Positions 1 to 31,047 of a stretch of DNA of 64,000 bases are shown here, piece by piece. Every line of letters begins with the position of its first letter. Position 1 is the stretch's first letter. The notes under the pieces are model-generated. The model did not search any database. It saw only the letters and a list, made by a program, of their open reading frames with translations, and had not been told where the DNA came from. The position numbers were made by a program, and so were the translations under genes. This stretch comes from an uncultured Methanobrevibacter sp. (lineage in GTDB: Archaea; Methanobacteriota; Methanobacteria; Methanobacteriales; Methanobacteriaceae): the NCBI RefSeq assembly GCF_902801725.1, contig NZ_CADCJB010000007.1:1-64000 (forward strand), given 5' to 3'.

Positions 1-3000
1 TTCACCAACCTTATTAGCAGTTAATTTACCAGTATTCCTATCAACACTAACAATATTACTATTAGAACTGGTATAAACAAGACTACCCGCAACAGCAGGA
101 TCAAGCTTAGCACCAACATACGCTGACTCAGTAACATTCACACTGATAACATCAGAAGCAAGAATCTTAACAGGAACATCAACTACATTAACTTTGACAG
201 TTTTACTTGAAGATGCATATTGCCTATTTCCATTAAAATTGATTTTAACTGTGGTGCTTCCAACAGATTTACCTATGATTGCTCCATTTTCAAAGGTTGC
301 AATATTTGGATTTGCAATTATGAATTCAAGATTACCTGCTTCAGGATGGCTGAAAGAATAAACCAGTTTAGCATTTTCTGTTAAATTAACAGTGATTGAT
401 TCTTCTGCATCTATTTTTGTTGAAACAAGCAGAACGTTTACAACCACATTAGCACTACTTTCTTCGAATTTATTGTTATTCCTTTCAAGGTGAATTGAAA
501 TAGATGCTTTGCCTTTACCCACAGCAGTAATAATACCTTTTTCATCAATATTTACAACACTTGTATCATTACTAGTATAAATTAATCTGCCGGCATTTGA
601 AGGATTTAATACAGCACCAATATCTATTTTATCACATGCATATAATGTAATTGTTTTATTGACATTAATGCTTGTAGGAATGGAATCCTTGTAAACATTA
701 ACTTCCACTTCTTCAGTTGCAGGAGCATATTTCTCATCGCCAGCAAAGCTTATTGTGACTATAGACTTACCCAGACCCACAGCAGTGACCATACCTTCAG
801 AATCGATTATAACAACATTTTTATTGCTGCTTAAATAGGTCAATACGGCTGTTGGGTTAGGATTTAAATGAGCATTGATATTCTCCTTTTCATCCTTCAA
901 CAAGCTGAAAGTTTTTCCAACGTCTATTTTAGTTGGAACTCTTGTTACCTTAACTATTGCACGAGCGCTTGATTTAACATATTTTTTAGTTCCAGGATAA
1001 TTAATTGTAATTTCAGCAGTACCTACCTTATATGCAATAAGGGTTCCGTACCTGCTGACGCTTACAACACTTGTATCATTGCTTGAATATTGCAAGTCAT
1101 ATGAATTTCCATGGTCTAAAGTCGCATTGATTTTTGCTTGATTATCAACATGCAATTCAATTTCACTTTCAACAGTGATTTTAGTTGGAACCACTTTTAC
1201 GACAACTGTTGTGGTGATTTGTGAAGGAAGATACTTTTGATAACCTGTGAATGATATTAATATTGAAGCTTTACCCTGATTGACTCCTGTTATTCCACCG
1301 TTTGCATCAACTTCTGCAATATTTGTATTGTTACTTTGATATGTAATATATCCATAAGGAACGGATACCCTGTTTCCATCAATATCCTTTAATATAGCAT
1401 GAATTGAAGTGAAATCTGTAACATTAACCTCTATTGTAGAATTTACTTCAAATTGAGTTGCATAATCAATAACTTTTACAAGAAGTTTTGAAGATGACGG
1501 CAGATATTTGTCGTTTCCGGCAAAACTAACAGTAATATAGGCAAAACCTGAACCGACACCTATAATCCTAGTTCCTTCCACTATTGCAACATTTGGATTA
1601 CTGCTAGCGTAAGTCAATTCCACATCAGATGGAGTTGAAATTGCACCAATATAATAGTCATTTCCCTTGTCTATAGTGATATTTCCACTAGGAATAATTT
1701 CTATTGAACTTACTCTTTTAGAGACTTTTATGACATATGAAGCAGATGCCGGACGATATTTTTCATTTCCGGGATATGTTGCTGTAATTTTAACTACTCC
1801 TTCCTTAAGAGCACTTACAATTCCTGAATTGACTTTAGCAACACTTGTGTCATTGCTGCTGTAAGTTATTAATCCTGCATAAGGGTTTGTTGTGAGTATT
1901 AATTGTTCCTTGGAACCAACATAGATTACTTTAGGAACCTCATAGGATTCTTTAATTTCAACAGGAATGCGTGTTACATTAACCTTAACGGTAATGTTGC
2001 AAGGTTTATACATATCCCTACCCATCACATCATAACCATTGAATCTAATAGTGAGGGTAGTGACTCCTACTTTAAGACCTGTGATTTTGCCTGATGCTGC
2101 GCTAACTTTTGCAATACTTGAATTACCTATTTCATAGGTTATTCTTTGATTTGAAATCAAAAATGGCATGTAACTATATTCAAAAGGATGAAGCAACTCG
2201 TTAATGTATTGATTTTTAGTAACTTGAACTTCAATGGTTGAATTTAATTCAAACCATGTGTCTTTCTGGAATTTGAAAGGCATATTATAAACAACATCTT
2301 CATATCTTGCTATTAAATTTCCTTTATAATAATCTATTTCTGCAACAAATGTTTCATCAAGGGCGACAACTTTTTTATTGAGTGTTAAGTTTTGAGAGGA
2401 TAAATTTAAATCGAATGATTCCAAGTTACTGAAATCATACAGCTCAACAACATCATTATCACTATCATAGACCATTAACTCGAATTTTCCGCTGAAAGTT
2501 TCACCAGAATATTCAATATTGGTTAAATTTAGGAATAACCAATTGTTCATTTCTGCAAGGTTTGAAACAGAAGGAGTGTTTTTATAATTGGACCATACAT
2601 TACCATACCAATTATAATTGGCTTTTACACCACCCCATAAACTGGAAATAACATATCCTCCCAATTTCATATTATTGTTTAAAAATATTGAATCATAAAC
2701 ACTGCCATTATATAAGAAATATATAATTCCATTATACTCTCCTGTATTGTTTATGAATGATGATTTTTCAATATTCACATTATTAGAAGCCAATATGGCC
2801 GCACCGTTCTTTGCAAAATTTTCTCTGAATACTGTGTCAACTATTTCTATATCTCCACCGTAAATTGCACCTCCACCGCCAATATCATTGCTGTCATATG
2901 TTGCCTTGTTGGCTATGAAATTGGAGTCATAAATCCTTGTAGGATTATCTTCTCTTTTTAAATCATATATAGCACCACCATCCCTGGCAGTATTGTTCTT

Positions 3001-4776
3001 GAAGATACAGTTAGTTATGGTTGCGCCATCACGACCGATATATATCGCACCACCACGAACTTTAGCATAGTTGTTTTCAAATAGGGAGTTTTCAATGTTG
3101 AGACCCATCCCTTCAGAATATATTGCGCCACCTAGGATATAGTTATGTGCATTATTTATAAACTTACAATCTATTATTGTTGTGTTTTTACCAGCAAGAT
3201 AAAGTGCGGAACCACCTGTAGACCCATCAGCAACATTATTGATAAAAGTACAGTTAATGAATTTTGCATTCATGCCTTGACTTTTAACACCTGCACCGTC
3301 ATCATATCTTGCATTACCATTGCTAATTACGATATTTTTTAAGGTTATGTCCTTTGCCATCAAATTAAATACTCTTGATTTGCCAGCAGCATTGATGATA
3401 TAACCATTTCCATCAATTGTTAATGTTTTGGATATTGATATTCCGGTAACTGATTTGTCTATGCTCTGAGTATAAAAATAATCCTTTTGCAAAACTATTT
3501 CATCATCATGACTGTCAATAAGAGATTGTAATTCATTAAAGCTGCCGCTTTTAAACTTTTTAGATACAACCACATTTCCACAATTTGCAATAACTGTGAA
3601 ATCTCCTAAAACAGTATAATTAAATAAAGCTTTCCCAGTATTGCCCAAATTGATTTTATTTGGATCCAATGTGGCATTTACTCCTGTTAAATCCGCACCA
3701 ATTGAAGGCAATTTATTTGTTGAATATATGCTTTCTTTACCTGTTTGACTGTTATATAAATTATTAATGGAAACTGTTGCAGTTGATGAATCTAAACTAA
3801 TGGCTAAATCAAGATATAACCATGAATCCACATTTATTTGTGAAGTAACCCTCGGTTTAACTAATCTATTGTCTATGGTATTTCCCCACCAGTTATTGTT
3901 TGCAGTAAACATACGCCCCCATGAATAAACGAGTGTTTCGGGATTACTTCCTAAAATGATTGAATCAGTCAAATTGATTATTGCACTTATGTCATTGGAT
4001 ATTGCACTTCCTTCAGGAGCATTGTTGCCAGTGAAAAGGCAACCCCTGACATTTACGACATCATCATATGGATTTTCTGTTGTTCCGAGTTGTCCTCTAA
4101 TTAAAAGTGCTCCACCACTATCTGTTGCATGATTTGAAACGAAATTACAATAAAGCACATCCTGCCTAATACCGTGATATGTTACAAGGGCACCACCATA
4201 TTCTGCAGTATTATTTTTAAATGTGGAACGAACAAATACTGAGTAACTGTTCGGATGTGAGAAGATTGCTCCTCCCCAGGATGCCTTATTGTTTATGAAA
4301 GTACAGTCAAGAACTCTTAGACATTCCCCATTTCCATAAATTGCACCCCCGGATTTATCAAATGAATTACCATTTATAAAATTAATATTTTTCAAAGTCA
4401 CATTAGTGGAATTTACATAAAATATTCTTGATTTGCTATTAGCATCAATTGTGTGCCCTTTTCCATCAATAATCAGATCATTTTTATTGATTAAAATTCC
4501 TTCTTTAATTACATCGGAACTAGAATAAGTATAATCCTTAGTTAAATCAATGCTTTTTGAAGTTCCACTATTTATAGCAGTATTCAATTCAGCGAAACTT
4601 CCATCCCCCGTTTTACTTAAATTTTCATAATTTAAATCATTAATGTTTAAACTATTATCATCATTGGCTTTTTGTAAAATACTATTTGTATTATTATCTG
4701 CAGATGCTACAGCAGACATGGTGATGAATACAAATAAAATCAAACATATTACCAATGCCGTCCTTTTCAATTTCAA
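1..4776 (-). CDS. Adhesin-like surface protein, C-terminus outside window (partial)
   Basis: The frame is open from the window edge to a TTG start at 4774-4776. A strong AGGAGGAG Shine-Dalgarno lies just upstream, and the first downstream ATG would fall inside the signal peptide, so TTG is the likely start. About 1,592 codons are visible. Order seen: signal peptide (MKLKRTALVICLILFVFITM, ending near VASA); a long stretch of right-handed beta-helix repeats with recurring GGAI and N-N/F-N-N motifs, as in polymorphic outer-membrane-protein repeats; then from about base 2280 down to base 1 at least eight Ig-like (BID_2-type) domains, spaced about 250-270 bp, each with a T/I-S-N-x-x-V signature. 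This is a secreted or wall-associated adhesin by family knowledge; the ligand is unknown. The C-terminal anchor is not visible. Confidence 0.85.
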   Translation of the reverse strand, partial: MKLKRTALVICLILFVFITMSAVASADNNTNSILQKANDDNSLNINDLNYENLSKTGDGSFAELNTAINSGTSKSIDLTKDYTYSSSDVIKEGILINKNDLIIDGKGHTIDANSKSRIFYVNSTNVTLKNINFINGNSFDKSGGAIYGNGECLRVLDCTFINNKASWGGAIFSHPNSYSVFVRSTFKNNTAEYGGALVTYHGIRQDVLYCNFVSNHATDSGGALLIRGQLGTTENPYDDVVNVRGCLFTGNNAPEGSAISNDISAIINLTDSIILGSNPETLVYSWGRMFTANNNWWGNTIDNRLVKPRVTSQINVDSWLYLDLAISLDSSTATVSINNLYNSQTGKESIYSTNKLPSIGADLTGVNATLDPNKINLGNTGKALFNYTVLGDFTVIANCGNVVVSKKFKSGSFNELQSLIDSHDDEIVLQKDYFYTQSIDKSVTGISISKTLTIDGNGYIINAAGKSRVFNLMAKDITLKNIVISNGNARYDDGAGVKSQGMNAKFINCTFINNVADGSTGGSALYLAGKNTTIIDCKFINNAHNYILGGAIYSEGMGLNIENSLFENNYAKVRGGAIYIGRDGATITNCIFKNNTARDGGAIYDLKREDNPTRIYDSNFIANKATYDSNDIGGGGAIYGGDIEIVDTVFRENFAKNGAAILASNNVNIEKSSFINNTGEYNGIIYFLYNGSVYDSIFLNNNMKLGGYVISSLWGGVKANYNWYGNVWSNYKNTPSVSNLAEMNNWLFLNLTNIEYSGETFSGKFELMVYDSDNDVVELYDFSNLESFDLNLSSQNLTLNKKVVALDETFVAEIDYYKGNLIARYEDVVYNMPFKFQKDTWFELNSTIEVQVTKNQYINELLHPFEYSYMPFLISNQRITYEIGNSSIAKVSAASGKITGLKVGVTTLTIRFNGYDVMGRDMYKPCNITVKVNVTRIPVEIKESYEVPKVIYVGSKEQLILTTNPYAGLITYSSNDTSVAKVNSGIVSALKEGVVKITATYPGNEKYRPASASYVIKVSKRVSSIEIIPSGNITIDKGNDYYIGAISTPSDVELTYASSNPNVAIVEGTRIIGVGSGFAYITVSFAGNDKYLPSSSKLLVKVIDYATQFEVNSTIEVNVTDFTSIHAILKDIDGNRVSVPYGYITYQSNNTNIAEVDANGGITGVNQGKASILISFTGYQKYLPSQITTTVVVKVVPTKITVESEIELHVDNQAKINATLDHGNSYDLQYSSNDTSVVSVSRYGTLIAYKVGTAEITINYPGTKKYVKSSARAIVKVTRVPTKIDVGKTFSLLKDEKENINAHLNPNPTAVLTYLSSNKNVVIIDSEGMVTAVGLGKSIVTISFAGDEKYAPATEEVEVNVYKDSIPTSINVNKTITLYACDKIDIGAVLNPSNAGRLIYTSNDTSVVNIDEKGIITAVGKGKASISIHLERNNNKFEESSANVVVNVLLVSTKIDAEESITVNLTENAKLVYSFSHPEAGNLEFIIANPNIATFENGAIIGKSVGSTTVKINFNGNRQYASSSKTVKVNVVDVPVKILASDVISVNVTESAYVGAKLDPAVAGSLVYTSSNSNIVSVDRNTGKLTANKVGE

Positions 4777-4909: not shown

Positions 4910-7681
4910 TTATTTTTTACGTCTTAAAAATGTGACGTTTAAAGTTACTAATACCAATATCAAAGCAAACAATGGATTTCCTGTTGCATTCTTATCATAT
5001 CTAATTTTAGAAACTTTAGTTTTATTATGTGGCTTTTCATTAGGTTTTTTTGGTTTTTTATGTTTTTTAGGTTTTTTTGGTTTTTTATGTTTTTGTTTCT
5101 TTTCCTTGGTAACGTTGGTTTTATTAGTACTGTTAACCGTTTTGTTTGTTTGATTATTTCCCGCAATAACAGTATTGTTCTTTAAACCAGTTGTCTTAGC
5201 AAGGAAGAAAAGTGTAATATTTCTTTTTTCTCCAACCTTCAAAACACCGTTGAAAATCCATTTGCCGTCGCCAACATAATGCCAAAGGCCGGATGGATCA
5301 ACGAAATAATCATATACCAAGCCTTCAGTATAATCCCTATCAATAATATATAAGCCAGTAATATCATATTTACCAGTGTTTTCAACAACTACTGTAAAGC
5401 TAACAGACTGACCTACTTTAACTACTCTATTGTTAGATATTTTTCTTACAGACATTTCTGGGTTAGGTAAAGTTTTAGTAGTATTAGTTGAATTTGACAA
5501 TGTGTAATTTGCATAACCGGAAGTAACATTATTTCTTAAAACACCAAGTTCCCTGGTTTCAAACTCAACTATGAAACTTGCACTCTGCTTTATCATTAAT
5601 GCTTGGTTCAATACCCATTTTCCATGGTTATCGTATGTCCATTTGCCAACATCATTATGCCATTTTTTGTAAACTAATCCTTTACTGTATTGAATATCCT
5701 TTACGAATACATCATTTAAAATCATGTTTCCATTGTTTGTAACAGTGATTTTAAATTGAACATTTTCCCCAACTAGAACAGTAGTATTTATAGTATCTTT
5801 TCTAACTGTTTCGTTAAACCTTTCAACGAATGGAAAACTTTTAAACAAGACCATATTTTGCCTATCGGCGGGAGTCAGGAACAGTTTCATGTCATATTCC
5901 ATTTTATCACCATTAGGAAGAACATATGACATATTAGTCATATTCATTTCATCATAATGATTTCTATACTGGTTTATAACATCCCTTACAAGCCTGTCTC
6001 TTGAATTTAGATAATCTCCATCTGTAAATATCCATGTTACCGTTTGAATATCGCCTTCAGTATAATCATCATACCTTTCAGGATATGCATCAAGCAGATA
6101 GAACATTACTCGAAGATAATCCTCTACAGAAGATCTGTCTACTGAATTTACAATATATGACAAATCTTCAATCAACACACCTTCGGTATTTTCCGGACGG
6201 AACAAATGCTCCTCTACACAGTAAACTTGATAACCCGCAAATTCACCAGTCGGAATGTAGTGAGTATCACGGGAATGACCGTCAAGAATATCATGCAGAT
6301 AATCATGGACTTCATGCTGATTATATACGATTAAATCGCTATCGGCAATTTTTGTATAATCATCCTTTTCATATCCGTCGATAACTATAATATTTCGCCC
6401 TTCAGTTGCTACATTATTTTTTAATATGGACTTTGATATGTCAAAACTTAATGAAAATATTGCTCCAGCGTGCCTAGCTTTATTGGCATCAAATATACAA
6501 TTTGTTATATGTGAATGACTTGTAGATAAAGCACCGCCGTAGTTCAACGCTTCATTATTTGTGAAATTGGAATTTGCGAATATATTATTATTGCTTTTGA
6601 ATCCAGTATTGATAGCACCACCACCGTATCCAGTAGCATTGTTTCTGTCAAATACTGAATTGTCAACAGTAAGGTTATAATTCGAACAAATTGCCCCTGC
6701 ACTGTATGCAGTATTGTTATAGAACTTTGAATTATATATTTTCACAAAGTTTCTTGGAACCAACTCTGAATCATATGGAGAAATTGAAAATATTGCGCCA
6801 CCTTTAAACCCAATATTGTTCTCAAATATTGAATTGTCAACAGTTAATTGGTTGATGGATGCAACAGCACCTCCACCTTCATCAATTTGATATTCTCCAG
6901 GGTTGAATACTCTGTTATTTTTAAATATTGAACTGTTCAGAACAGAATAAGCAGCGAATATTGCACCGCCTAAACCTTTTTCTTCAAGTTGCAAGTGATT
7001 TTTTGAATACCTTGCCAATACCTTATTGGATTCGAATAAGGAATTATCGACAAGCAAGTTCCTAGCATATATAGATCCACCATTAAATTCCGCAATATTG
7101 CTACCAAATTTTGAATTGTAAATGTTTACATGAGTAGAACCTGATATAAGAGATACACCAATAGCACCACCATGTTTAGTAGCAGTATTTTTTTCAAATG
7201 TACAACGATTGACTGTTAAGTTACCTGAATTAATTAGGATCGCCCCACCGTTTGAATCGGAGGCTGAACGTCCATTTACAAATTTTATATCATTTAAAGT
7301 TACATGTCCACTGTATTGAGCAAAAATTCTTGCATTTCCACTTCCGTCAATGGTATGATTATTACCATTTATTGTTAATCTTGAAACGGGAATACCGTTT
7401 CTCAATGAATGGTCATTAATATAATCATATTTATAGTCTTTAGTTAAAGTTACAATACCGTCTTGAGCGTTCTCAATTTCTGTTTGCAAATCAGTGAATG
7501 TAGCTACGTCGCCATCTTCACTTAATATATCAACATCCGTATTTCCTTGATTTATAGATAACTGTTCATTTCCATTATTTACATCTGTGTCTGTTGGAAC
7601 ACTTTCACTTGCTGAAACCATCCCAATGGACATTATTAGTATTAAAAATACCAACAAAATCTTCAGTTTATTACATTTCAT
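4910..7681 (-). CDS. Adhesin-like protein with putative thioester domain and C-terminal membrane anchor
   Basis: I start this at ATG 7681 (923 aa), because GAGGG sits 6 nt upstream; a TTG eight codons earlier has no ribosome site. Order seen: signal peptide (residues 1 to about 25); beta-helix/Pmp repeats with GGAI motifs (about 45-420); a region with YCVEE (Cys488) and DIQTVTWIF (Gln546), 58 residues apart with an intervening LLDAYP, which matches the Cys/TQxA pattern of thioester-forming adhesion domains (TED); two DUF11-like repeats (about 625-850), each with GLVY followed by W-x-Y; a Lys/Pro-rich spacer; and a final hydrophobic segment ending FLRRKK. The spacer and membrane tail suggest anchoring through the pseudomurein wall. 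The thioester assignment is inference from motif and spacing. Expression is probably from an AT-rich promoter upstream of 7690. Confidence 0.85.
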   Translation of the reverse strand: MKCNKLKILLVFLILIMSIGMVSASESVPTDTDVNNGNEQLSINQGNTDVDILSEDGDVATFTDLQTEIENAQDGIVTLTKDYKYDYINDHSLRNGIPVSRLTINGNNHTIDGSGNARIFAQYSGHVTLNDIKFVNGRSASDSNGGAILINSGNLTVNRCTFEKNTATKHGGAIGVSLISGSTHVNIYNSKFGSNIAEFNGGSIYARNLLVDNSLFESNKVLARYSKNHLQLEEKGLGGAIFAAYSVLNSSIFKNNRVFNPGEYQIDEGGGAVASINQLTVDNSIFENNIGFKGGAIFSISPYDSELVPRNFVKIYNSKFYNNTAYSAGAICSNYNLTVDNSVFDRNNATGYGGGAINTGFKSNNNIFANSNFTNNEALNYGGALSTSHSHITNCIFDANKARHAGAIFSLSFDISKSILKNNVATEGRNIIVIDGYEKDDYTKIADSDLIVYNQHEVHDYLHDILDGHSRDTHYIPTGEFAGYQVYCVEEHLFRPENTEGVLIEDLSYIVNSVDRSSVEDYLRVMFYLLDAYPERYDDYTEGDIQTVTWIFTDGDYLNSRDRLVRDVINQYRNHYDEMNMTNMSYVLPNGDKMEYDMKLFLTPADRQNMVLFKSFPFVERFNETVRKDTINTTVLVGENVQFKITVTNNGNMILNDVFVKDIQYSKGLVYKKWHNDVGKWTYDNHGKWVLNQALMIKQSASFIVEFETRELGVLRNNVTSGYANYTLSNSTNTTKTLPNPEMSVRKISNNRVVKVGQSVSFTVVVENTGKYDITGLYIIDRDYTEGLVYDYFVDPSGLWHYVGDGKWIFNGVLKVGEKRNITLFFLAKTTGLKNNTVIAGNNQTNKTVNSTNKTNVTKEKKQKHKKPKKPKKHKKPKKPNEKPHNKTKVSKIRYDKNATGNPLFALILVLVTLNVTFLRRKK
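5042..5095 (-). repeat. In-frame 27-bp tandem repeat in the Lys/Pro-rich spacer
   Basis: Two copies of a 27-bp unit (5042-5068 and 5069-5095) match at 26 of 27 positions. The unit is a multiple of three and encodes KKHKKPKKP-like sequence, so copy-number change would lengthen or shorten the wall spacer without breaking the frame. Confidence 0.75.
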
Positions 7682-8368
7682 TATTTCCCTCAAAACGAGA
7701 GACAAACCAAATATGTATAAACTAAATCAAATTGCACAAATTTAATAATATAAATTCTTAAATTTATTTCAGTTAATTTAAACCCCTTACAAATAATATA
7801 ACCTAACCATAATAATGCTTTCAAAAACATAATATAACTAATCAAATTAATTATATCCATTAATTAAAACACTAGGCCAAAAAATACCAATCATAATAGT
7901 TAAAAATTAATTTAACGCATTTGATTTAAGTATTTTAATATAAGATTTGTTCTAACTCAATAAACATAATATTATATTATTTAAATCTCAGGAATACTAC
8001 AATTTATATGAATTCATATTCCGCATGGTAATTTATTTTGTCCATATAATATAAACATTTCTAAAAAATAATCATTAATTTAAACAAAAATATATAATCT
8101 GCAAATACATTTTTTAAACAAATACCAATATAATGTTAATCTATTAAAAAAAATACAATATTTTTGATTATTTATGAAAATTTGGATATAAAAGATAATA
8201 CTTCAAATTTTTAAGATTTTTAAAAATAATTAAATAATCTTTTTAAATTTTTTTATAAGTAATATTCAAAATTAATATAATAATATTGAACAAAAATATT
8301 ATTTAAAGAAAATCATTAAATGGTTAATAACATTTAAGATTTAAAATAAATAATTTAATAAAAAATCA
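7682..8368. other. Long AT-rich intergenic region
   Basis: About 690 bp with no credible gene on either strand. It should hold the promoter of the minus-strand adhesin, with TATA-like sequence in the first 100 bp upstream of its ATG, and the downstream region of the flavodoxin gene. No conserved RNA structure or repeat was recognised. Confidence 0.6.
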
Positions 8369-26179: not shown

Positions 26180-26198
26180 AGTAGAAAGATTTTCTACT
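26180..26198 (-). terminator. Terminator hairpin of the papain-adhesin gene
   Basis: AGTAGAAA and TTTCTACT form an 8-bp stem with a 3-nt loop, overlapping the stop codon. On the minus strand a T-rich tract follows. Confidence 0.65.
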
Positions 26199-29100
26199 AT
26201 ACAACCCTGATTTTTACGTTTTTGGACACACCATTATAATAAGCATTACCACCATATCTAATTTTAGCCGCATAAGTGCCTTTTTTATTTAATTTGGTAA
26301 TTTTAAATGTTGCCTTACCATAATTATTTGTTTTTGTACTATAGGTTATACGACCAATCTTTAAAGTGACTTTGGTTCTTTTCATTGCCTTATTTAAGTT
26401 ATTTTTCAATGTAATAACATATTTTTTAGGTTTAACCTTTAATTTAAAGGATTTAGATGAAGCATATAATTTTGTAGCTGCTTTTTTGACAACCACTTTT
26501 GCTTTAATGTTTTTGCATGAACTACTTGAAATAACAACACTGTATGTTTTTGCAGGGAAATTACATGCCAGTTTAGCTTCACCATTGGCATTGGTTGTCA
26601 ATGTGTAATAATTGAATTTTACTCCATTGCTTGCAACAACATTAGCATATACCTTAGCATTCTTTATAGGATTGCCCTTATAGTCTACTAACTTTATAAT
26701 TAAACGTTTAGAATCGCCATAAACCTTATTAACACTATTTGCAGACAGGACAGGAGATTCATCAATCACATTTACATTAACTCTAGTTGAATAGGAATTG
26801 AAATTATTGTCTCCGCTGTATTTTACAGGTATCAAATAGGTGCCTTTAGTAACCGGCGGAATATTGAAACGGGACTCACCATTTACAATTTGTTCTGGAT
26901 AATCTTTACCTTCAAATGTGAAGATTATTTTACCGGTAGCTTTGGCTGATGATAATTTAGCAATCAATATTTTACCATTATCATCAGTTAGAAATTCTAT
27001 TTTAGGAGTCTTTTTTGATACAGTTAATTTGAACTGTTTAAATTCATTTGTAGCAGGGTTGGTTACTTCCACATTATAATTGCCAGCACCCAATAAAACG
27101 GAAGTGGATGCAACACCTTTGCTATCAGTTACCCCTTTATAGTTAACATCATTAATTTTAAATGCCACATTAGCATTTGAAATTGCTTTGCCTTCGCTAT
27201 CGATGAAAGTTGCCTTGACATATGAATCTTCATAGACGTAGCTTAAGTTATCGGCGGTAACTGTTGTTTTGACAATGATTTTAGATGAACCTGAAATGTC
27301 CTTATACTGATATTTGATTTCATATATTCCAGGACCTAAAGGTATTTTAATGGAAGCTACACCATCACTGCCAGTAGTGGCGGCATAAACATCCCCCTGA
27401 AATATGAAATTAACCTCAGCACCGCTTAAAGGCTTGTCATTATCTGTTATGTAAACCTTGAAACTTTCGGGATTTCCGTAATATTTTTCCAAATCAGATG
27501 CTGAAACCACTACATTAGAAGTTACATCAAATTTTTCGGATGCAGTAAAACCGTTCATATTTGCATCGCCGGCATATGATATTGAATAATTATAGGAACC
27601 GGATTTCAAATCAGTTATTATCAAAGAAGCGTTTCCCTCATGGATTGAAGATGGGTAATCCTCTTGTTCGAATGTGAAAACTATATTTCCTGTTGCTGTA
27701 GACGGATTCAAACTTACAGTTATTGTAACTGAATCTTCAATTTGACTGGTGAATATTGAAACATCCGGAGAGGATTTTGTAATTGTGAGTTTGAACTGTT
27801 TTTCCTCTTTGGTTGCCTGATTAACAGCAATGACATTATAGCTACCCACATTTAAATCGATTTTGGCAGTTGCAACACCATTATTATTGGTTGTTGCTTT
27901 AAATTCCATATTATTGATTTTGAATGTGACTTCTTTTCCTGCAAGTGGCTGTCCATTAGCATTTAGGAATGTTCCACTTGCTTTTGCATTGAAATAACTT
28001 CCTGTCACATCACGGACAGCAATTGTTGATTTGATTGTAACTTTTGACGCCTTGGAATCACGGCCATAAACTGTTGTAACATCATAGATTCCAACGGCCT
28101 GATTCAAATCAATGCTTGCCTGACCTGCAGTATTAGTTTTTACACTATACGACTTACCATTTATATTGATTGTTACGTAATCTTCAACCAACGGCTTACC
28201 GTTTTTCATGACTGTTGCAGTGAATTTTTCAGGTCCTCCATAATACTTGGAAACATCGGGAGCTGAAATGGATATGACAGGTTTGATTACATTAAAATTG
28301 AATTTGACAACATTGGATTTATAAATATTATTTTTATACTCTGCAGATAATGAGTAAGTTCCGGTTTCATTGAAAGTTACTTTTAAACAGGCTTGGCCAT
28401 TTTTGACATATGCATAATAGTTCTTATTATTTATAGTAATTGCTACAGTGCCGCCATTTATTTGACTGTTACTGAGTTTAACATTGATGCTTATCTCTTT
28501 ATATGCTTCAACTTCAGTTAATTTATCAACAGTGATTGTTACATCTTTTAATTCCAATGGAGTTGTAAATGCCTTAATGCAAGCTACATAACATCCAGAT
28601 TTATAATCATATAAATCCTGCCAATAATCACAAGTTTGATTATATATAAATGAAACATTATCTGCGAAGGTCACTTTGTTAATTCTTGAAGCATCACAAA
28701 GTGGAATACTATTATTTCCACTATTATAATTTTTAATGACAATAGTAAATTTGGTTCCTGAAGCCAATTTTATTGGAGAATTAAATGGAATTGTATAATA
28801 ACCGGCAGGAGAATATCCTTTTTGAGTCAGAACCAAATTATTACCCACATAGACTGAAACTTCATAGTTAGTCGGATCGATGAAAAATGTTGAAAATGCA
28901 GACAATTTTTCATCACCAAATGAAGTGAATGTGTTTTTGTAAGATGCACTGCCATTGAAGATAATAATATAATTTGGTCCTCCAAAGTCATACTGGTAAT
29001 TTCTTGTATAACCTTCAGTATCGTTGAATATGAATGTGTAGACAAAATTAGATAAAGGTGATTCAATTTCATTTTTAAATTGTTTCTGATAAGACATATG

Positions 29101-31047
29101 GCAGAAACCATCTTCCAAAACGGTACCCCAACTGTTTTTAACTATCCATGCGCCTTTAGCATAATTTCCGAAAACATCCTTACCATTATAATTGTCATCC
29201 CATCCTATAAGTGAAATGGTGTGATAGGTATTAATCCAATATACCGAAGCGGTAACAGCACCATAGTCCATAATAGCCCGTTTTATAGCATCATTATCAT
29301 CAGTATTTTTACGGACAGGCAAACAGTAAATATTTTGAACATGGACCAAAGGACTGAAGACTTCAGACAATCCAGAATAATCATCATATTCATCAAGGCT
29401 GTCATTTACTGGACCTAACCAACTTGCAAAGTAACTCATTGCCATACTATCAACCCCTCCTTCATTCGGCTCATAAGTTCTGCCGAAAAGGGAATAGTAT
29501 GACATTAAATTTTTAACATTTTCTTCGGAAAGGTCATATGATATTCCTGTCGCTTTCTTAAGGCATGCTTCCAGTGTAGCAATTGACCCGAATGACCAAC
29601 AATTAGCACCGCTAAACTGATTTTTAATTGGACTGATATAACCGTAATCCCTTGAGTCATAATATGACGGAACATTTGTCTGTGATTCAGGAACATAATT
29701 GATTAATGGTACAGCCTGATTAGAATTGAGATCATAAATTGTATTGTTTTCTCTGAAAACAGTATGTCCAAAATTGTCTTCTGAGTTATAAAAGGTAGTA
29801 TTGGTTAATGTTACTGAATCAGAAATTCTTGAATAGATTGCACCCCCACTATTGGCATGGGAATATTGAAAATGAGAGTTTTTAGAATAAATATTTCCCC
29901 TGTCGTTAAAAATAACACCACCCATAAAAGTTGCCGCATTATTATCAAAAATAATATTATTAATTATTAGATTTGAATTTAGATTACATATTGCACCGCC
30001 AAAATCAGATTTTCCATTACGAAAGACTCCATTCACGATGCTTAAACTGCAATTTTCATCATAAAATGTTCCACCACCATCACTTAAAGCAATATTATCT
30101 GAAAAATAACAATCATTGGAAGTTACAGTACTTGACTTAACTGCCATAACCCCTCCAAAACTGGAAGATTGTGAATAAAAAAATCTGGAATTTAACAAAT
30201 CAACATAATTATCTTCCGCATATATCACACCACCATATTTGGCGGAATTAAGATTGAATTCAGAATTGAAAATTCTTAGAACTGATTTCAAACTATATAT
30301 TGCTCCTCCTAAACGACGAGATGTAGAGTTATAAAAATATGAATTATTAATTAACACATTTGAATTATAAGCATCAATAACTGCTCCTGATTCACCTGAA
30401 TTACTTTGAAAAATACAATTATTTAATGTTATATTAGTCCTCGAATCTTTAGGGGAATCACAAACTATTACACCACCATAGCTATCATAAACATCTCCAT
30501 TATAATCTAAAGAACTTAAAGAAGTTTCATAAGAATCAGTAGAATAAAAAATAACATTATTTGCTTCCAAGTTTCCCTGATTAAGAATATTAATCTTATA
30601 GAATGTCAAGTCTTTTAATTCCAGAGATGAACCTTTTAGAATTTTGAAGTCGAAGTCAAATGAATTAGAAATAATATTGGTGGGGTTTTCATTTTCACCC
30701 ACAAATGTTATCTTTTGTGAAGCTGATGAAATTTTTATTAACTCATCCAATTCATAATTACCATTTGCAAAATAAGCAGTTCCCACATTGGTCAATTTAT
30801 TGGAACTTAAATATTTATATGGTTTTTCTTTTGATCCGTCTCCATCGACACTTGCCGATGCATCAAAATAAACTGTTTGTCCGCTTTCCAGGACATCTGA
30901 TTGTACTTCTGTAAGTTGTGTTTCATTCTGTGAAAATGCATCCAAAGCAACATCACCCGATTGGGTTGAATTGACATCACTTGCACTAACAACAGAAATT
31001 GCAAAGAGCAATATAATTATGGCAAATACTGATTTTTTATTAAACAT
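26197..31047 (-). CDS. Adhesin-like protein with embedded papain-type (C1A) cysteine protease
   Basis: 1,616 aa. Signal peptide (FAIIILLFAISVVSA); beta-helix/Pmp repeats with GGAI motifs (about 90-440); then a papain-like domain (about 455-690) with oxyanion Gln477, catalytic Cys483 in QFSGANCWSF, His609 in YHTISLIGWDD and Asn638 in VKNSWGT, so the catalytic set is complete. A beta-rich segment (about 700-830) follows, then repeated Ig-like/Big domains (about 840-1500) and a Lys-rich C-terminal domain ending NVKIRVV without a transmembrane anchor. Similar protease-adhesin fusions are known among methanogen adhesin-like proteins. It may cleave peptides of wall, host or neighbouring microbes, or process itself; the substrate is unknown. 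It is divergent from the symporter across 122 bp. Confidence 0.9.
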   Translation of the reverse strand: MFNKKSVFAIIILLFAISVVSASDVNSTQSGDVALDAFSQNETQLTEVQSDVLESGQTVYFDASASVDGDGSKEKPYKYLSSNKLTNVGTAYFANGNYELDELIKISSASQKITFVGENENPTNIISNSFDFDFKILKGSSLELKDLTFYKINILNQGNLEANNVIFYSTDSYETSLSSLDYNGDVYDSYGGVIVCDSPKDSRTNITLNNCIFQSNSGESGAVIDAYNSNVLINNSYFYNSTSRRLGGAIYSLKSVLRIFNSEFNLNSAKYGGVIYAEDNYVDLLNSRFFYSQSSSFGGVMAVKSSTVTSNDCYFSDNIALSDGGGTFYDENCSLSIVNGVFRNGKSDFGGAICNLNSNLIINNIIFDNNAATFMGGVIFNDRGNIYSKNSHFQYSHANSGGAIYSRISDSVTLTNTTFYNSEDNFGHTVFRENNTIYDLNSNQAVPLINYVPESQTNVPSYYDSRDYGYISPIKNQFSGANCWSFGSIATLEACLKKATGISYDLSEENVKNLMSYYSLFGRTYEPNEGGVDSMAMSYFASWLGPVNDSLDEYDDYSGLSEVFSPLVHVQNIYCLPVRKNTDDNDAIKRAIMDYGAVTASVYWINTYHTISLIGWDDNYNGKDVFGNYAKGAWIVKNSWGTVLEDGFCHMSYQKQFKNEIESPLSNFVYTFIFNDTEGYTRNYQYDFGGPNYIIIFNGSASYKNTFTSFGDEKLSAFSTFFIDPTNYEVSVYVGNNLVLTQKGYSPAGYYTIPFNSPIKLASGTKFTIVIKNYNSGNNSIPLCDASRINKVTFADNVSFIYNQTCDYWQDLYDYKSGCYVACIKAFTTPLELKDVTITVDKLTEVEAYKEISINVKLSNSQINGGTVAITINNKNYYAYVKNGQACLKVTFNETGTYSLSAEYKNNIYKSNVVKFNFNVIKPVISISAPDVSKYYGGPEKFTATVMKNGKPLVEDYVTININGKSYSVKTNTAGQASIDLNQAVGIYDVTTVYGRDSKASKVTIKSTIAVRDVTGSYFNAKASGTFLNANGQPLAGKEVTFKINNMEFKATTNNNGVATAKIDLNVGSYNVIAVNQATKEEKQFKLTITKSSPDVSIFTSQIEDSVTITVSLNPSTATGNIVFTFEQEDYPSSIHEGNASLIITDLKSGSYNYSISYAGDANMNGFTASEKFDVTSNVVVSASDLEKYYGNPESFKVYITDNDKPLSGAEVNFIFQGDVYAATTGSDGVASIKIPLGPGIYEIKYQYKDISGSSKIIVKTTVTADNLSYVYEDSYVKATFIDSEGKAISNANVAFKINDVNYKGVTDSKGVASTSVLLGAGNYNVEVTNPATNEFKQFKLTVSKKTPKIEFLTDDNGKILIAKLSSAKATGKIIFTFEGKDYPEQIVNGESRFNIPPVTKGTYLIPVKYSGDNNFNSYSTRVNVNVIDESPVLSANSVNKVYGDSKRLIIKLVDYKGNPIKNAKVYANVVASNGVKFNYYTLTTNANGEAKLACNFPAKTYSVVISSSSCKNIKAKVVVKKAATKLYASSKSFKLKVKPKKYVITLKNNLNKAMKRTKVTLKIGRITYSTKTNNYGKATFKITKLNKKGTYAAKIRYGGNAYYNGVSKNVKIRVV

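Follow-up and report, generated by a model that had tools for sequence, protein, structure and literature searches.

The window, the whole 64,000-nucleotide stretch of Methanobrevibacter DNA analysed here, carries on its minus strand a gene for an adhesin-like protein of 923 amino acids (4910..7681, ATG start), as defined by the ORF listing and its translation. The longest listed frame with the same stop (end at 4910, minus strand) has 931 residues and a TTG start at 7705; the ATG at 7681 is preferred because it yields a canonical signal peptide, and it also agrees with the residue numbering of the preliminary description of this DNA. Reading of the sequence places a predicted signal peptide at residues 1-25 (MKCNKLKILLVFLILIMSIGMVSAS; 7607..7681), followed by a right-handed beta-helix of Chlamydia PMP repeats (PF02415, E = 1.3e-7, above cut-off) that probably extends over residues ~60-435 (6377..7504). 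The next region, residues ~460-625 (5807..6304), resembles the thioester domains (TEDs) of bacterial adhesins and was delimited with a family alignment and hhalign. Behind it come two DUF11/CLIPPER domains, at 5483..5806 (PF01345, E = 1.1e-14) and at 5162..5452 (a second PF01345 stretch), then a stalk that is rich in Asn/Thr and further on in Lys/Pro (residues ~846-899; 4985..5146) and a C-terminal tail (4913..4984), both assigned by sequence reading. The tail, in which TGNPL precedes a hydrophobic helix and RRKK, would serve for membrane anchoring or sorting; Pfam sorting models gave no match to it. All of these features lie on the minus strand.

The nearest named relatives of the adhesin are from Methanobrevibacter, and the neighbouring genes, judged by eye, are methanogen-like. 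Adjoining it on the same strand is a second adhesin-like gene (1-4776), which runs off the window and encodes at least 1592 amino acids, with a PMP-type beta-helix followed by many Big-like repeats; the two genes possibly form a tandem adhesin locus. In another adhesin-like protein of the window (26197-31047, minus strand) a beta-helix is followed by a segment like that of papain-type cysteine proteases (GANCWSFGS) and by a series of Ig-like domains.

The two DUF11 domains of the 923-residue protein exceed the Pfam cut-off, with PF01345 scoring 55.2 bits against 24.6. In a crystal structure of a DUF11 domain, Lys715 and Asn806 are joined by an isopeptide bond with Asp748 nearby (PMC12617251), and the corresponding Lys/Asp/Asn triads are found here as K628, D662 and N717 in the first domain and as K747, D781 and N836 in the second, with a spacing of 34/89 in both, compared with 33/91 in 9IFR. 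In seven relatives the first triad is invariant, as are K747 and N836 of the second, with Asp or Glu at position 781. Both domains carry an isopeptide triad, and the bonds themselves are predicted.

Within the TED-like region, counting from the ATG at 7681 confirms the positions given in the preliminary description, namely Cys488 in YCVEE (motif 6223-6209, Cys codon 6218..6220), LLDAYP (6097-6080) and Gln546 in DIQTVTWIF (motif 6052-6026, Gln codon 6044..6046), all on the minus strand. The direct models for such a domain were silent: the window protein matched neither PF08341 nor TIGR03934 (the TQXA domain of NCBIfam) even at E <= 10, so that it reached the curated cut-off of neither model, and a PF08341 scan of its genome also returned no match. 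Taken alone, this lack of similarity to the two models with which the preliminary description proposed to compare the segment speaks, on the HMM side, against a thioester domain. Other family members, however, reach or approach the PF08341 cut-off, and one short-type relative scored 17.1 bits with TIGR03934, for which the cut-off is 30.4.

The family was represented by three alignments, one of 29 diverse members (A1), one of the subfamily to which the window protein belongs (A3) and one of 10 short-type members of about 300 amino acids (A4); the pattern scan of genome contigs used a narrower alignment, the broad one being too variable. All ten short-type members matched PF08341 at E <= 1, the best at 3.9e-5, and against the family profile the short-type proteins reach about 1e-25. 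Several other proteins of the genus exceed the PF08341 curated cut-off, while members of the window-type subfamily are absent from the list of PF08341 matches in the genus. Comparison of the window-type and short-type alignments with hhalign gave a probability of 97.7% and E = 2.2e-12; the columns of the Cys, the TQ motif and QN coincide in this alignment. When the archaeal family was compared with a bacterial TED profile built from 20 bacterial loci collected with PF08341, the alignment had E = 1.4e-7 and a score of 52, as against 11.4 +/- 2.0 for 100 column-shuffled controls (maximum 17) and 12 for the reversed profile; the window-type subfamily alone gave E = 3.3e-6 and a score of 44 (100 shuffles, 12.5 +/- 2.2). 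This profile alignment places YCVEE opposite a bacterial YC/FC motif and DIQTVTWIFTDG opposite ATQTLVWEFVTG, and the three published TED motifs are all present in the same order. The domain is, with high confidence, a genuine and divergent archaeal relative of the TEDs. The earlier proposal that a methanogen adhesin contains a thioester domain is accordingly supported, both by the comparison of profiles and by transitive homology with archaeal proteins that PF08341 recognizes, although not by direct matching to PF08341 or TIGR03934, nor by the fold search.

Homologues of the domain segment form a family in Methanobacteriaceae and were found in 37 of 120 relatives. Of 152 Methanobacteriota genomes, 69 have the domain according to the A1 profile, frequently in several copies, and 17 according to PF08341. 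Searches of viral contigs and plasmids, and of 295 other bacterial genomes, returned no relatives. The sole bacterial match (L083/L159) lies on a contig of a genome binned as Firmicutes (G187) and closely resembles Methanobrevibacter copies; this contig is probably mis-binned. Two copies of the domain (L117 and L119) share one 5674-aa frame in genome G136, and genome G134 has three matches of identical E-value in 1154-aa frames on contigs C4, C15 and C29, which may stem from recent duplication or from a repeat in the assembly.

AlphaFold models of the domain, made from 13 and 15 sequences, are of moderate confidence (pLDDT 69 and 77), too low to reveal a TED fold or a Cys-Gln contact, and have the expected order of secondary structure: a strand with the Cys, central helices and strands around Gln608. 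When both models were compared with the PDB by Foldseek, none of the solved TEDs came up at E <= 0.001; the best of them, the TIE protein of B. anthracis, was listed twice in the first run (ranks 7 and 14, TMq 0.35) and was missing from the second. A PDB search with the profile of the short-type archaeal TEDs matched no chain.

The residue that would pair with Cys488 can be judged from conservation, counted over 85 members at 90% non-redundancy. Cys488, the predicted thioester Cys, lies in a [YFL]C-Phi-zeta motif (YCVE); its conservation goes far beyond chance, with Cys in 76 of the 82 aligned members and Tyr, Phe or Leu before it in 81 of 82. The preliminary description had joined it to Gln546, a residue that does exist and that stands within a TQxA-like motif. 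This Gln is found in 47 of 83 members, being replaced in the other 36, most of which still have the Cys, by Ser, His, Thr, Ala, Lys or Asn in most cases. It occupies a TQxxPhiW motif (here IQTVTWIFT, in a predicted helix, with the Trp in 59 of 83) and aligns with the bacterial ATQ, which identifies it as the TQ-motif Gln of the central helix. In bacterial TEDs both the Gln and the Trp of TQxxPhiW are dispensable for the bond, the thioester residues being located in the [YFL]C-Phi-zeta and Phi-Q-zeta-Phi-Phi motifs (Walden et al., PMC4450167). Losses of Cys488 and Gln546 do not co-vary (P = 0.69, from few sequences and uncorrected for phylogeny). With Gln546 poorly conserved and in the wrong motif, we reject the Cys488-Gln546 bond as highly improbable.

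A better candidate is Gln608 in RQNMV (5858..5860, minus strand), which the preliminary description overlooked because this codon falls outside the coordinates it covered. Gln608 is retained in 75 of 80 members, so that Cys488 and Gln608 are each 93-94% conserved, and in the A1 alignment it is one of two invariant columns, the other being F552; Gln546 is not among them. Both residues of the pair are kept in 71 of 77 comparable relatives and tend to be lost together (71/1/2/3, Fisher P = 5e-4, again from few sequences and uncorrected for phylogeny). RQNMV conforms to Phi-Q-zeta-Phi-Phi except that the leading hydrophobic position is Arg, and this motif is weak in bacterial TEDs too (PMC4450167). 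The local alignment to the bacterial TEDs ends before the Gln608 region, and the equivalence of Gln608 therefore rests on family conservation, co-loss and a weak alignment to Cpa. The last of these came from a PDB profile search, in which the Cys, TQ-motif and QN columns were co-linear on the Cpa chain 4c0z, at an E-value (1.1) that is not significant alone. In that match the Cys and the last Gln are 149 residues apart in the chain. Cys426-Gln575 is a known pair in Cpa (PMC4282584); since 4c0z is labelled as Cpa's N-terminal domain, we assign no residue numbers to the match. Conservation and co-loss together make Gln608 the most likely thioester partner of Cys488, and formation of the Cys488-Gln608 thioester in the window domain is predicted as a probable outcome. 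At four loci (L067, L116, L129 and L125) Phe, Ala or Ser stands in for the Cys, and Lys or Gly usually for Gln608; these are possibly inactivated thioester domains that could be useful as controls.

Other readings of the region accommodate some of these observations. It might be an unrelated, methanogen-specific domain that resembles a TED by chance, as the lack of a direct HMM match or a fold match would allow; yet the profile scores lie 14-20 standard deviations above the shuffles (14.5-20 in the finer figure) with the reversed control at background, and the transitive link runs through members above the PF08341 cut-off, so that coincidence is very improbable. The one conserved Cys might instead belong to a Cys-dependent enzyme of the papain or transglutaminase type, domains known from methanogen adhesin-like proteins (PMC11532034), and a papain-like segment is present in the window itself, in the adhesin at 26197-31047. 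Against this, the family has no conserved His or Asp, which argues against a Cys-His-Asp enzyme, and peptidase and transglutaminase Pfam models found no match in the window protein; an enzyme of this type is rejected as exceedingly improbable.

More weight, while still unlikely, attaches to the reading in which the TED fold is present and the thioester is unformed or unreactive here, so that the domain would have a structural role or bind non-covalently. Relatives that lack the Cys, the Gln or both (F/Q, F/K, A/K and S/G at the two positions) indicate that the fold can outlast the bond. In the window copy, in contrast, neither residue and none of the three motifs has been lost, and 71 of 77 comparable relatives share the pair. 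The explanation that we favour as a whole, likely on present evidence, is that of a divergent archaeal TED with a Cys488-Gln608 thioester that would mediate covalent attachment.

According to this proposal, the TED (residues ~460-625) would be held between the beta-helix head and an isopeptide stalk of two DUF11 domains in a surface protein anchored to the membrane. As the protein folds, Cys488 and Gln608 would react through their side chains, releasing ammonia and leaving a buried thioester; once the domain had docked on its target, an amine of the latter, for example of a Lys, would attack the Gln608 carbonyl, leaving the adhesin covalently attached. SfbI, FbaB and Cpa serve as the analogues from which we infer the bond, its reactivity and its target. 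Use of the domain in covalent adhesion is plausible, with the chances about even.

The archaeal domain shares with the bacterial TEDs (PF08341; SfbI, FbaB, Cpa, CpTIE) the motif order [YFL]C-Phi-zeta, TQxxPhiW, Phi-Q-zeta-Phi-Phi, the modelled succession of strand, central helices and strands, and the surface adhesin context, and its Cys-Gln spacing of 120 compares with 129 in CpTIE (Cys138-Gln267; PMC4450167). It differs in being below the detection limits of Pfam and TIGR03934 and in having a bond that is only predicted; furthermore, bacterial TEDs are usually, if not obligatorily, N-terminal and LPXTG-anchored, whereas the archaeal domain is internal, following a beta-helix, in a protein lacking LPXTG. 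As in the Gram-positive TIE (thioester, isopeptide, ester) proteins, a thioester-like domain sits on a stalk with isopeptide triads, but here the stalk is DUF11/CLIPPER, anchoring falls to a membrane or sorting tail at the C-terminus and a beta-helix precedes the TED. The stalk itself resembles the characterized DUF11/CLIPPER domain (PF01345, 9IFR) in having two domains over the cut-off with Lys, Asp and Asn in place, features known here from sequence. A signal peptide, a PMP/right-handed beta-helix and a membrane-anchoring helix are shared with the adhesin-like proteins of Methanobrevibacter smithii and M. ruminantium. In combining a thioester-like domain with an isopeptide stalk, the protein may be an archaeal counterpart of the thioester-isopeptide adhesins of bacteria.

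A survey in 2015 described TEDs as exclusive to Gram-positive bacteria (PMC4450167), and a 2024 inventory of adhesin-like proteins from M. smithii and Methanosphaera stadtmanae lists none (PMC11532034). Our literature search, of partial coverage, turned up no report of TEDs in archaea. Automatic annotation of the few PF08341-positive archaeal members probably exists, since some of them pass the Pfam cut-off; the extent of the clade, its architecture and the assigned residue pair look new. Gut methanogens could, with roughly equal odds for and against, possess a covalent-adhesin clade of their own that bonds to partner microbes, food particles or host glycoproteins. If true, this would extend covalent adhesion beyond the Gram-positive bacteria, and both its targets and its domain plan would be unprecedented; a widespread archaeal clade, mostly missed by Pfam, would offer a chemical hypothesis for the attachment of Methanobrevibacter to its hydrogen-producing partners.
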